NCBI GenBank assembly: GCA_019637115.1
Contig: JAHBWH010000044.1
Location: 1 to 50,433, forward strand
Reading direction: 5' to 3'
Length of the DNA stretch: 50,433 bases
DNA from: Myxococcales bacterium
Lineage (GTDB): Bacteria > Myxococcota_A > Polyangia > Polyangiales > Houyiibacteriaceae
How positions within the stretch are numbered: the stretch's first letter is position 1; the number at the start of each line of letters is the position of its first letter. This document shows, in pieces, positions 27,034 through 39,302 of this stretch. Position numbers and translations under genes: made by a program. The notes under the pieces were generated by a model. It worked only from the letters and a program-made list of their open reading frames with translations, had not been told where the DNA came from and searched no databases.

Positions 27034-27198
27034 GCTCAGTACAGTGAACCAGGAGTTCGTGACGAGGTGCAAAGAGGCGCGCGTCCAGCAAGGCGCGACG
27101 AAGGAGCGGGCTGCTCACCCGTGACTGAGGAGCAACGCAGCTGGACGGGATGGATCTGCCGCACCTGGTCACGAACTCCTTGGGGAACTGTACTCAGC
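27034..27198. mobile_element. MITE-like palindromic element with ~37-bp inverted arms
   Basis: The left arm (27034-27070; core AGGAGTTCGTGACGAGGTGC) and right arm (27161-27198; core GCACCTGGTCACGAACTCCT) are inverted copies with few mismatches and one 1-base gap, around 90 bases of interior. Within the interior CGTCCAGC and GCTGGACG also pair, so the transcript could fold into one long branched hairpin. No transposase gene is present. It could be a MITE, an IS remnant or a structured RNA. It lies between the aldehyde dehydrogenase start (26987) and the repeat element at 27206. Confidence 0.75.
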
Positions 27199-27205
27199 TC
27201 CCTAT

Positions 27206-27318
27206 GAGGGGCTGTCGCCAGCCCCTCCCCCACGGGGCATGAAGCCCCGCGGGGCCCCCTCCCGCGAGCCTACGCTCGCTCCGCTCGCTGCGCGCCGTCC
27301 GGTAGGGCGGCTTGCCAA
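27206..27318. repeat. Dispersed structured repeat, copy 1 (intergenic)
   Basis: The segment begins with the hairpin GAGGGGCTG-TCGC-CAGCCCCTC (27206-27227). It continues through GGGGCCCCCTCCC, GCGAGC-CTAC-GCTCGC and CGCTCGCTGCGCGCCGTCC to AGGGCGGCTTGC. A second copy sits at 37678-37769, inside the acyl-CoA oxidase gene. It ends 10 bases past the stop of the lipoprotein gene (27328), so the hairpins may also end that transcript. Confidence 0.85.
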
Positions 27319-27327
27319 AACGGTGGA

Positions 27328-29517
27328 TCAGGGGCACGCCGTGGTCGCGTGGGCGCCCCAGCCCACGCGCATCGCCGCGACGTCCGCGGCCGGGAGGCCA
27401 TAGGCGGTGAGCGCCTGACACGGGTTCTGCGCGAAGGGGGTCGCGCCGAAGTTGGCGCGGATGTCGTAGGGGGCCGTCAGCTCGGTGACGTGCCCGAAGA
27501 GCATCGGATAGACCGGCACGAAGGCGTCGTACATCGCCCAGACGTCGACCACCTCGCCGCCGACGACGAAGTACACCACGGGGCTCGTCCCGCGGTAGTC
27601 GACCGCGAAGCCATAGGTGTCGCGCGAGGGGTCGAACGCGCGGCGGTACATGAGGTTCTGCCAGGTGGCGCCGAACGTGTTGAGGGTGCAGCTCGGCGGC
27701 ACGAGCGCGTCGTCGTAGGGATCGAGGTCGCCCTCGGCGATGACGAGGCCCGCGCCCTGGTTGTCGGGCCCGATGAGGCGCGTGGCCTCGAAATACCAGA
27801 AGTCGCCGTAGAGGCCTTGGTTGGCGCGGAGGGCCATCTTTCGGGGGTCGCTCCACCGGACCGAGAGGCCGTCGGGGGAGAGCGCCATCCCGCTGCCGAC
27901 GAGCGGGTCGACGGCCGGGTCGTCCACGAGCCGCACGGTGGCCGGCGTCGGGAGCGCGCCCGTCACCTCGAGCCGCACGATGGCTTGGCGCCGGGCGCCG
28001 TACGAGTCCTGGACGGTGACGCGGATCGGGTGGAGCCCGACGGTGCGGGGCGTGTAGACGAAGGTCCCGCCGAGGGCGCCGTCGCGGGCGGCGTAGACCG
28101 TCGCGAGGTCTTCCCAGACGATCCGGTCGCTGAGCTCGCCCTCTTCGGCGTCGCTCGCCGACGCGACGAGCGTGACGGTGGCGCCGAGGGCGACGCTCAT
28201 GTCGGCGGGGGCCGTGAGCGATGGGCGCGCGTTCGTCGGGAGCGCCCGCGTGCCGGTCCAGCCGAGCACGAGGGCGTCGGCGACGGAGCCGAGCCCCTCG
28301 GCGCGCAACACGGCGTCGACGTCGTGCGCGAAGGGGCGGTTGTTCGTGTCGAGGCCGAAGTTGAAGCTCGCGTCGACGCCGACCTTGCAGCGCACCCCCG
28401 TCGCCATCGCGTGGACGGGCGCGTTCGTGGCGAGCGCCTGGGACGCGAGCACGGAGGGGCCGTGCTCGTCCTCTCCCACGACGTGAACGACGGGGCTCGC
28501 GCCGCGGTAGTCGACGACGAAGCCCCAGGTCGTGCCCGTCCCTGCCGGGCCGAGGCGCATGTCGCTCGTGTTGATGCCGCCGAGGATGACGACGTCGAGA
28601 CCGGACGCGGTGGAGCCCGGGTGGGTCGTGAGGCTCGCGGACGCGGTCCCGACGCCGAGGTTGAGGCCGCCACGGGGCGTCGGCACGCAGCCGAGCGGCG
28701 CCTCGGTCGGATCGCACTCCCAGGGCTCGATGCTCGCCTCGAAGTAGAAGACGCCGCTCGCGGGCGCCACGGCGCACTCGGACCGCACGCCCCCGACCAC
28801 GCCCGTATGCCACTCGGCCGCGAGCCGGTCGGGCGTGAGGCTGACGATGGCGTCGCCGGTCTTGTCGGTCGCGCTCAGGCGGCAGTCGAAGCCCGGCGCG
28901 CCGACGACGTACGTACGAGACGCCGTGTCGTGCAGGCCGGCCTCGTCGACGACGCGCTGACGGACGAGGACGGTGCCCGACGAGGAGAAGACCCGCGCGT
29001 TGGCCAGCGCGAAGCCATCACCGAAGTCGTACTCCACACGCGTGATGGGCGCGTCGCCGGGGGTCGCGTGGCTGGTCGCGGTGACGAGGAGCGGCGCGGC
29101 GCCGGTCGCGGGGTCGAGCGTGAACGCAGCCGTCGGACCGACGCGACAGATGCCCGCGACGCAGCCCCCGCTCGCGCAGTCCGCGCCTTCGCGACACGCG
29201 CGGCCGGACGCGCACGGGGGACAGAGGCCCCCGCAGTCGACGTCGGACTCGGTGCCGTTGAGGACGCCGTCGTCGCAGCGCCCGGCGTCGGGGCCGCCGT
29301 CGTGCCCGGCGTCGGGCCCGCCGTCTGCGTCGAGCGCGTCGCCCGGCGCATCACGGACGTCTGCGTCGCGTGGATCCACGCTCGCGTCGTCCCCGCCAGC
29401 GTCGATGGCGCCGTCGGCGGTGCCGGCGTCGCAGTGGTCGTCGAGGCACGTCGCGTCGTCGCCGCAGGCGATGACGAAGAGAACCATCGATGTCCACACG
29501 AGGGCCCGCATCATCAT
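27328..29517 (-). CDS. Large PKD-domain lipoprotein with two SPRY-like modules
   Basis: A 729-residue lipoprotein: signal [14 protein letters not shown] with lipobox VIAC; an Asp/Gly/Ala-rich linker to about residue 75; a small Cys-rich module ([20 protein letters not shown]...[13 protein letters not shown]); a PKD domain ([20 protein letters not shown]...VEYDFGDG); two B30.2/SPRY-like modules sharing [17 protein letters not shown] and [19 protein letters not shown]; and between them an Ig/cadherin-like segment ([20 protein letters not shown]). It is likely a surface-exposed binding protein; no enzyme motif is seen. Three consecutive ATGs (29517, 29514, 29511) are possible starts; the first is given. 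Confidence 0.85.
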
Positions 29518-29978
29518 CCCACCAACCGGAGGGTAGCTGGCTGCGAGCACGGATGCGAACGACCTCGGCCGCTGAACGCCGTATCCCCTACTCCATTTTA
29601 GGTAGAGAGACTGGGCGTCACGAAGTGATCTTGGCTCGCTGTTTTCGCGAGATCGAGGCGCGGAGCGCGGCCCTCGGATGGGGTGGGGTCGTCGTCCACG
29701 TTGGGGAACGACGGACGCGCGCCGACTCGGATGAGGCGACGCGAAGGCTCCTAGCGAAGATGTTCCGGGCAGTTCGTCGCAGATCTCGATCGCTGTCGGC
29801 GACTGGAGGGAGCCGGCTCAGCCGCGCAGGCCGAGACGGAGCATGGCTCACGTCGTGTGCTCACGTCCTGTGCTCACGTCCTGCGGTCGGCGTGCGGCGA
29901 CGACGCCCTGCGCGGCGCCGATCGGGTTGGGGAGCAGCTCGGACCTTGGGCTGGCCGCTTCTCGTGTACGCTCGCCCG
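29518..29978. other. 461-base intergenic region with a 13-bp tandem repeat
   Basis: No gene is supported. The part near 29580-29650 is AT-richer and may hold promoters for the divergent genes. At 29846-29884 a 13-bp unit GCTCACGTCCTGT occurs three times (29846, 29859, 29872), the first copy with two changes. Confidence 0.55.
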
Positions 29979-36845: not shown

Positions 36846-39302
36846 TCAATCCGGGACGCGCGGTCGACGTCGGGCGGGGTCGCCGAACGCGATCGGCGCC
36901 GCGAGCGCGCGATCGGGCACGCCGAAGGCGTCGACGAGCCCCCGCGCGTCGGCTCGCAGCTCCAGGCAGAGCGCGTCGACGAGCTTCCGGATCGCGCGGA
37001 TCTTCGGGCCCTCGAAGAAGCCGTTCTCCAGGTACCAAGCCGCCTCTCGCTCGAGGCGCGAGAGCGCGAAGAGATCACGCAGCGCGACGAGGTGACGGGC
37101 CGGTCCGTCGGGGAGCTCGGCGCCCGCGATCACCTCGTCGAAGCTCTCGAGCACGAAGCGGTCGATGTGGGCCTCCGCCAACGCGACGAGGTGTGGCTGG
37201 ACCTCGATCATCGCTGCGTGCGGGTCCATCCCCTCGCCCAAGCGGCGCTGCAGGCGCCTCGCGACACCCGAGCGCAGGACGTCCGCGCGCGCCGCGAAGA
37301 GGTCGCGATGGTAGTCGGCGTCACGCAGATGACCTTCGTCCGCCCTGCGCGCGCGGAGCGGGCTCCGGTCGATCGCGCGCCCGGCCGCCTCGCGGACGAG
37401 GCGCAGGCTCGACAGCAGCCGCGACTCCTGGAACTGGCGGCGAAACGAGGTCAGCAGTCCACGGGCGACCAAGGAGAGCAACACCGTGTTGTCACCCTCG
37501 AAGGTCGCGAAGATGTCGGCGTCCCGGCGGAGCATCGCGATGCGGTTTTCGCTCAGGTAGCCCTGGCCACCGCAGCACTCGCGCGCGTGTTGGAGGGTCT
37601 CGATCGCGTGCCGGCTCGCGGCGGCCTTCAGCCCCGCGGCGAGCGTCTCGAGCTCTCGGGAGCCCTCCGCTTCCTTCGAGGGGCCGTCGGCCGCTCCCTG
37701 CGGGGCCCCCTCCCACGAGCCTACGCTCGCTTCGCTCGCTGCGCGCCGTCCAGCAGGGCGGCTTGCGAAGCCAGCTGAGAGCTTTGTTTCACCAGTGGCG
37801 TCGGCGGCGAGGTAGCGGCGTCGCGCTGCGTCCACCGCGAAGTGGTAGGCGTACGTGGTCGCGAGCGCGGGGAGGAGCCGGCGCTGGTGCGTTCGATAGT
37901 CGAGCAGCGGCGCCTCGGGGCGGCCTTCGGGTCCGAATTGTCGACGGGAGTCGCCGTAGCGCACCGCGACCGCGAGGCCGACCTTCGTCGCGCTCACCGA
38001 CGCCGCCGCCACCCCGAGGCGGCCGCCGACGAGCGTGCCCAACATCGTGAAGAAGCGCCGGGACGCGCTCGGGATCGGGCTCTCGTAGCGCCCCTCGGCG
38101 TCGACCTGCGCGTAGCGCGCCAGCAGGTTCTCGCGGGGCACCTCCACCTGGTCGAACCAGAGCCGACCGTTGTCCACGCCTTCGAGGCCCATCTTGGCGC
38201 CGTTGTCGACGACGCGGACGCCGGGCATGAGCTCGCCGGAGTCGTCGCGGATCGGCACGAAGAACGCATGGACGCCGTGCCACGCCTCGCCGACGCGGAG
38301 CTGCGCGAAGACGACGGCGTCGCGCCCGTGGCAGGCCGCGTTGCCGATCCATTCCTTTCGCGCCGACTCCGACGGCGTGTGGACGACGAAGGCGTCGCGC
38401 TCGGGCTCGTAGCGCGCGACGGTCTCGAGGGCCGCGACGTTCGACCCGTGGCCGAGCTCGCTCATGGCGAAGCAGCCCAGCCGCTCGCCCCGCGCGATCT
38501 CGGGCAACCAGCGCGCGCGCTGCGCGTCGTCGCCGAGGAAGTAGATCGCGCCGCCGAAGAGGCCGAACTGCACCCCCGTCTTCACCCAGACGCTGAGGTC
38601 GCCGAAGCCGAGCGTCTCGAACGCGACCATGAAGGCCTCGAGGTCCGGCTCGTCGGTGGTCACCCCCGGGTAGGCCCACCGCCCGAGGCCCGCGTCGGCG
38701 AGGGCGAGCACGCGCGCCTTCACGTGCTCGCGGTACGCGCCGCGCTCGAGGTCGAAGCTCGGCTCCGCGCCGGGCTCGTCGAGCAGCGCGCGGACGCGCG
38801 CCCTGACGTCCGCTCGGTGGCCGTCGAGGAGCTGGCGCAGGGCGAGGGCGCCTTCGCGCACCTCGGTCGCGAAGTCCGGGAGGGGCTCCTCCTCGCCGAG
38901 CTCGAAGAAGCAGGCGGTGGCCTCGGGGCCATGGAGCCCGAGGGCTTCCTCGATCGACTCGAGCGCGTCGCGGACGTCGGCATCGCGCGCCTCGTCGTCC
39001 GCGCCCCGCCGCGCCATCGCCTCTCCGAGCGCGGCGAGCGACCGCCGCTCGTGGGGATCCAAGGTGCCCGCGCTCTCGCGCACGCGCGCGAGCAGCGAGG
39101 CCAGCGCCTCCGCCGATGGCGGCGCGCTCGCGTCGAGCCAGGGCGCGAGCGCCTCCCGCGCGTCCGGGCCGAGCCACGGAAGCGACGCGACCTTCTGCTC
39201 GAGCAACGCGAGCTCGTCGGGCGCGAGGTCACCATCGGCCCACGCGACGTAGAGCAGCGGAAGAAAGGGCCTGACGTGCGGGTGGGCGAGTGCTTCCGTC
39301 AT
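36846..39302 (-). CDS. Acyl-CoA oxidase/dehydrogenase with N-terminal TerB-like domain
   Basis: An 818-residue protein. Residues ~8-130 resemble a TerB-like helical domain (LPLLYVAWADGDLAPDELALL...VASLPWLG). The remainder is an acyl-CoA oxidase-type flavoenzyme oxidising acyl-CoA to trans-2-enoyl-CoA: GVQFGLFGGAIYFLGDDAQR, CFAMSELGHGSNVAALET, GKMG-like KMGLEGVDNGRLWFDQVEVP, GGRLGVAAASVSATKVGLAV, RRQFGPEG, CCGGQGYLSENRI and TFEGDNTVLLSLVARGLL. About residues 511-542 are an Ala/Ser/Gly-rich insertion coded by a dispersed DNA repeat, placed between the helix ending YLAADATGETK and LETLAAGLKAAASRHA. The start is ATG 39302 with GGAGAC 6 bases upstream. Role: beta-oxidation; chain-length preference unknown. 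Confidence 0.9.
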   Translation of the reverse strand: MTEALAHPHVRPFLPLLYVAWADGDLAPDELALLEQKVASLPWLGPDAREALAPWLDASAPPSAEALASLLARVRESAGTLDPHERRSLAALGEAMARRGADDEARDADVRDALESIEEALGLHGPEATACFFELGEEEPLPDFATEVREGALALRQLLDGHRADVRARVRALLDEPGAEPSFDLERGAYREHVKARVLALADAGLGRWAYPGVTTDEPDLEAFMVAFETLGFGDLSVWVKTGVQFGLFGGAIYFLGDDAQRARWLPEIARGERLGCFAMSELGHGSNVAALETVARYEPERDAFVVHTPSESARKEWIGNAACHGRDAVVFAQLRVGEAWHGVHAFFVPIRDDSGELMPGVRVVDNGAKMGLEGVDNGRLWFDQVEVPRENLLARYAQVDAEGRYESPIPSASRRFFTMLGTLVGGRLGVAAASVSATKVGLAVAVRYGDSRRQFGPEGRPEAPLLDYRTHQRRLLPALATTYAYHFAVDAARRRYLAADATGETKLSAGFASRPAGRRAASEASVGSWEGAPQGAADGPSKEAEGSRELETLAAGLKAAASRHAIETLQHARECCGGQGYLSENRIAMLRRDADIFATFEGDNTVLLSLVARGLLTSFRRQFQESRLLSSLRLVREAAGRAIDRSPLRARRADEGHLRDADYHRDLFAARADVLRSGVARRLQRRLGEGMDPHAAMIEVQPHLVALAEAHIDRFVLESFDEVIAGAELPDGPARHLVALRDLFALSRLEREAAWYLENGFFEGPKIRAIRKLVDALCLELRADARGLVDAFGVPDRALAAPIAFGDPARRRPRVPD
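37678..37769. repeat. Dispersed structured repeat, copy 2 (inside the acyl-CoA oxidase gene)
   Basis: It shares with 27206-27318 the start GAGGGGC.GTCG, the block GCGGGGCCCCCTCCC, CGAGCCTACGCTCGCT, CGCTCGCTGCGCGCCGTCC and the end AGGGCGGCTTGC, with scattered substitutions and a shorter 5' part. Here it is read in frame on the minus strand as an Ala/Arg/Ser/Gly-rich peptide without stops. Confidence 0.85.

Follow-up and report, generated by a model that had tools for sequence, protein, structure and literature searches.

A hairpin repeat bordered by TCAG, found at gene ends and occasionally in frame within genes of a Myxococcales bacterium

IS200/IS605-type elements lack inverted repeats, carry hairpins and insert beside a fixed tetranucleotide. 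Palindromic repeats are also known inside genes. In Rickettsia conorii, nearly half of the palindromic elements lie in frame in genes (PMC10969869). REPs are found close to 3′ gene ends, where their GTAG tag often supplies a TAG stop, and in-gene REPs have been reported in several other bacteria outside Rickettsia (PMC3733652).

The repeat described here, element A, is present twice in a 50,433-nucleotide stretch of contig of a Myxococcales bacterium (the window), once between genes and once within an acyl-CoA oxidase gene. An earlier note on this DNA had compared the in-gene copy with the Rickettsia elements and had remarked on its occurrence in a very different lineage. That point loses its novelty, since in-gene palindromic repeats had already been reported outside Rickettsia (PMC3733652). 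Element A itself had no earlier published description that a literature search could find, which is not proof of absence. We think it likely that element A is a non-autonomous mobile repeat that inserts at TCAG, rebuilds stop codons at its borders, and is purged from genes unless it is in frame.

Copies of element A within genes

The in-gene copy of the window is described by the following features:

36846-39302, minus strand: acyl-CoA oxidase gene (Pfam ACOX_C_alpha1, ACOX and Acyl-CoA_dh; solved homologues, e.g. 5ys9; homologues in related genomes)
37666-37788, within this minus-strand gene: element A copy, in frame (repeat matches, homologue alignment and boundaries)
37789-37792, plus strand: TCAC, a degenerate 3′ terminal TCAG of element A (border comparison)

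The solved structures nearest to the product of gene 36846-39302 are acyl-CoA oxidases. The insert is 123 bp long (3 × 41, i.e. 41 codons) and is bounded by TCCG (37666-37669) and TCAC (37789-37792), both of them degenerate versions of the TCAG that borders other element A copies. The element is in plus orientation, hence antisense to the gene, and the translation of the insert contains ..KLSAGFASRPAGRRAASEASVGSWEGAPQGAADGPSKEA.. The earlier note had put a repeat copy at this place, where it is indeed found, but had given it 92 bp and ~31 residues instead of 123 bp and ~41 residues.

The in-frame insertion is real. Eight homologues from eight other genomes, the congener included, match the enzyme up to residue ~497-503 and resume at residue ~541-547; the segment is thus not a conserved part of other acyl-CoA oxidases, being absent from 8/8 of the homologues checked. 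The site, which the earlier note had placed between conserved blocks, is one at which the homologues differ in length; the one from G005, a genome of another genus of the same family, has ~18 residues of its own at this point. At the DNA level, the two window copies (37678-37769 and 27206-27318) are 92% identical across 74 bp, and their local alignment score of 62 stands far above the values from 1000 dinucleotide shuffles (mean 16, maximum 29), which bears out the relationship first noticed between them. The alternative, that this stretch belongs to the normal conserved sequence of the enzyme and resembles the intergenic repeat by chance, is refuted by both the eight homologues that lack it and the shuffles; nothing was found in its favour, and we regard its probability as negligible.

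Compared with the consensus peptide, the acyl-CoA oxidase copy lacks one 21-bp hairpin (7 residues). Its predicted folding is at the level of shuffled sequences (z of -0.4 and +0.2), whereas two intact copies gave z values of -3.3 to -4.7. We infer that this copy has lost its folding and is by now retained or tolerated purely as protein sequence. A single-sequence model of the enzyme, unusable as a structure (pLDDT 38), would show the insert as coil flanked by two predicted helices. We claim no benefit of the insert to the acyl-CoA oxidase.

A genome-wide search, which the earlier note had proposed, revealed dozens of further copies in the host genome (G000; 8.88 Mb in 434 contigs, completeness 98%). 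With fragments merged, G000 has 60 sites with at least 72 copies of element A, and its congener G001 (completeness 89%) has 73 sites with at least 80 copies; these numbers are lower bounds, because only the top candidates of each search were scored. Both assemblies are fragmented, with frequent breaks at element A. A search for carriage of the element by phages or plasmids returned no match.

For each copy, an open frame through the element together with coding-like codon usage on both sides was taken as the in-frame test. Only 5 of the 133 sites in the two genomes lie in frame inside genes, the remainder being mainly intergenic. Besides the acyl-CoA oxidase copy, they are:

G000, L194: Ser/Thr kinase with ATPase and repeat region; insert absent from 7 homologues
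G001, L132: flavin-dependent monooxygenase; element itself and coding signal on both sides
G001, L147: helicase-like protein with MZB domain; element itself and coding signal on both sides
G001, L212: ABC-F ATPase; insert absent from 8 homologues

In the monooxygenase and the helicase, the insertion was judged from the element and the flanking coding signal. The five inserts measure 123, 141, 141, 144 and 138 bp (the last in the ABC-F gene), all multiples of 3. Four of the five are read in the same antisense frame and give, in whole or in part and with few substitutions, the common peptide ASRPxGRRAASEASxGSWEGAP (AASEASVGSWEGAPR is an example from the insert-bearing proteins); the fifth is read in the sense frame. 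The insert is missing from the ABC-F orthologue in G000, which is 87% identical and differs by a net 138 bp. The simplest reading of this sequence comparison is that the ABC-F insertion took place after the two species had separated, which would allow function with and without an insert to be compared directly for one of the five proteins.

These copies bear on whether element A is a selfish, protein-coding palindromic element of the Rickettsia type, spreading in genes by way of a tolerable peptide. The five insertions in unrelated proteins, four of them with a common peptide, and a size close to the ~150 bp of Rickettsia palindromic elements (RPEs; PMC10969869) are what such an element would leave. 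The likeness drawn in the earlier note holds to this extent: the repeat is dispersed, palindromic and in frame, and four further in-frame cases exist. It does not extend to a coding family, with 5/133 sites against nearly half in Rickettsia (PMC10969869). Furthermore, the absence of stops, to which the earlier note had tied survival in genes, is not a special property, since ~95% of shuffles of the same composition are open in at least one of six frames, and most shuffles have more open frames than the G000 consensus. Within genes, element A is also far less frequent than the tetranucleotide that is its target. We therefore hold a Rickettsia-type element to be very improbable. For a mobile repeat that inserts at TCAG and is mostly lost from genes, the same counts provide a measured rate, 5 of 133 sites in two species, at which a repeat becomes protein.

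Modular hairpins conserved by pairing

The consensus of element A reads TCAG-CTTCCTATGAGGGGCTGTCGCCAGCCCCTCCCCCACGGGGCATGAAGCCCCGCGGGGCCCCCTCCCACGAGCCTACGCTCGCTTCGCTCGCTGCGCGCCGTCCGGTAGGGCGGCTTGCGAAATCGGCTGAGCTTCTTT-TCAG and is ~145 bp long, or 153 bp when 8 bp of the first loop are duplicated; with extra arms the element reaches up to ~240 bp. Hairpin 1 is formed by GAGGGNCTG...CAGNCCCTC, and hairpin 2 lies behind it. Both hairpins are kept in G000, G001, G005 and G026, the last from another family of the same order, and the stem of hairpin 2 has been swapped outright among them (CGGGGC/GCCCCG, GCGGAAT/ATTCCGC, TGTCGGG/CCCGACA, ATGGG/CCCAT and ACGCGA/TCGCGT).

The pattern of hairpin 1 was detected in 18 of the 318 genomes of the class, and a reversed control pattern gave 0 matches. 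Counts above 15 were confined to genera g1 and g5 within family f1 and to family f3. In 102 of the 108 places listed, the two free positions of hairpin 1 form a Watson-Crick pair, which is of three kinds (G-C, T-A and C-G). Within the genus most stem positions are invariant, and RNAalifold revealed two pairs with changes on both sides; hence, the case for the structure comes mainly from the comparison between genera. We conclude that element A is built of hairpin modules, and that what two families of the order have retained in the stems is the pairing rather than the sequence. Such a fold, kept in both families while its stems change freely, suggests that an enzyme reads the hairpins.

The modules vary in number as well. 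Hairpin 2 of some copies is enlarged by an additional branched arm of ~90 bp, in others an arm replaces the GAGC hairpin, and both species have such forms. Long forms with one of the two extra branched arms were seen at L222, L229, L240 and L249, and on G000 contigs C10, C46, C60, C179 and C235. Related hairpin repeats, differing in their stem sequences, occur in G005 (loci L148-L167) and G026 (loci L168-L181), often in arrays and at contig ends.

TCAG borders, stop codons and a proposed mechanism

The intergenic copy of the window adjoins a second repeat, termed repeat B, and a converging gene:

27040-27192, plus strand: repeat B, MITE-like, with terminal inverted repeats and CTNAG target duplications (27035-27039 and 27193-27197)
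27198-27327, plus strand: intergenic element A copy with shortened 3′ end; TCAG at 27194-27197 and 27328-27331
27328-27331, plus strand: terminal TCAG of this copy; its TCA (27328-27330) is the TGA stop of the minus-strand gene 27328-29550

At the 5′ border, CTTC is directly preceded by TCAG in 44 of 63 copies; at the 3′ border, AGCTTC is followed by TCAG within 3-8 bases in 42 copies. A longer direct repeat, of 4 bp or more, flanked the element in 0 of 33 cases. The ends of element A are direct AGCTTC repeats, not inverted ones, and head-to-tail tandem copies are joined via one TCAG. Whether TCAG is counted as part of the element or as a target duplication, the resulting sequence is identical.

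In the window, element A directly follows the right TCAG of repeat B. The same was found with four matched copies of repeat B, in which element A begins exactly after the right TCAG, and an alignment added a fifth on contig C45. Because repeat B ends in its own CTNAG duplication, its copies without element A display the empty site, with one TCAG. Between the intergenic copies of G000 and G001, the comparison gave one syntenic pair and no orthologous empty site resolved to the base. Repeat B is ~155 bp long, has roughly 40 copies in the genome and looks like an ordinary MITE. One gene is followed by element A in G001 (L218, C470) and by repeat B, directly at the stop codon, in G000 (L261, C124).

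The position relative to genes was analysed with gene calls from a codon-usage score trained on this genome, not from curated annotation. As in the window, the terminal TCA is the exact TGA stop codon of the converging 3′ neighbour in 31 of the 41 copies with such a gene ending in the range examined, which amounts to ~39% of the testable copies (31/80). On the 5′ side, plus-strand genes showed no peak (30 cases, with no position shared by more than 3). In all of the tested stop-codon copies (22/22) the coding sequence ends at the element, and since coding never continues past it these are natural gene ends, not truncations. The 3′ neighbour is biased in orientation, lying on the minus strand in 71 cases versus 20. 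A count of TCAG/CTGA in 494 kb of retrieved sequence gave 1174 occurrences within genes, 187 at stops and 483 in intergenic DNA, where the ends of the elements themselves are also counted. Insertion at TCAG followed by the loss of harmful insertions explains the distribution of element A, so that no special aiming at stop codons is needed; TCAG insertion that rebuilds stops likewise explains the orientation bias and the tandem copies.

The same observations can be read as signs of a functional RNA at gene ends, a 3′ UTR stabiliser or terminator that spread for its benefit. Pairing-conserved stems, a position directly after stop codons and the orientation bias of 71 versus 20 on the 3′ side would all suit such a role. 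However, position and orientation already follow from TCAG insertion plus purging from genes, the element is patchy across genera, and a search of 11 loci against Rfam produced nothing at E ≤ 1, nor did the window at the gathering threshold. We consider it rather unlikely that element A is mainly such an RNA. The orientation bias, taken up for a time as a hint of RNA function, was dropped for the reason that TCAG insertion at stop codons explains it.

For a mobile repeat directed to TCAG, the following mechanism may be proposed. An enzyme would insert element A at TCAG, which is CTGA on the other strand, and would probably recognise its hairpins as single-stranded DNA, a mode of recognition suggested by the presence of hairpins and the lack of inverted repeats. 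As TCAG would be left at each junction, a stop of the form NNC-TGA would be rebuilt and the insertion would be harmless. The element's own end would offer a renewed target, from which tandem copies could arise. Insertions within genes would be purged unless they were a multiple of 3, had an open frame and fell in a tolerant loop; the acyl-CoA oxidase copy may be one such survivor, persisting simply as coding sequence. Such a repeat can land on stop codons without destroying them, a low-cost way of filling a compact genome.

It could be asked whether the enzyme is a RAYT (Y1) transposase, with element A a repeat of the REP/BIME type and CTGA its terminal tag. Hairpins, a location near 3′ gene ends and a terminal tetranucleotide that supplies the stop, as GTAG does in REPs (PMC3733652), agree with this. 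Y1_Tnp (PF01797), however, had no match in G000 or G001, although five control genomes and 21 of 38 related ones gave matches; moreover, the tag is neither GTAG nor CGTC, and the element has about 145 bp with several hairpins, compared with the one palindrome of 20-40 bp in a REP. A RAYT-moved repeat is thus an unlikely identity for element A. No other mobilising enzyme and no autonomous partner of element A was found. Tentatively, element A might represent a distinct class of small mobile elements of this order, tagged with CTGA, built with interchangeable hairpin arms and inserted at TCAG so that stops are rebuilt; gene ends would be its safe landing sites, and the shared peptide would occasionally be added to a protein.

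Comparison with known systems

The comparison with RPEs was made by features. Like them, element A is palindromic, ~150 bp long, and present in frame in several unrelated proteins with a conserved peptide; unlike them, it is coding at ~4% of its sites, sits at TCAG and stop codons, and has a multi-hairpin core common to two families. With the GTAG- and CGTC-tagged REPs and BIMEs it shares hairpins, the vicinity of 3′ gene ends, a stop-supplying tetranucleotide and occasional in-gene copies, but its tetranucleotide is CTGA/TCAG, it measures ~145-240 bp with several hairpins or branched arms, and no RAYT was detected in G000 or G001.

MITEs such as ERIC, BOX, Correia and Anabaena MITEb/e are similarly short, non-autonomous and dispersed, with occasional in-frame fusion to host genes. 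Element A differs from them in having no terminal inverted repeats and only TCAG at its borders, whereas the adjoining repeat B fits a MITE. IS200/IS605-type elements resemble it in the lack of inverted repeats, the hairpins and the fixed tetranucleotide; no Y1 transposase for element A was found in G000 or G001, nor an autonomous copy, and any likeness to them in mechanism is putative.

We conclude that: i) element A works like REPs and Rickettsia palindromic elements but belongs in neither group, and ii) what is new here are the pairing-conserved modular hairpins, the TCAG borders, and a terminal TCA that in most cases with a converging neighbour (31 of 41) is the TGA stop of that gene.
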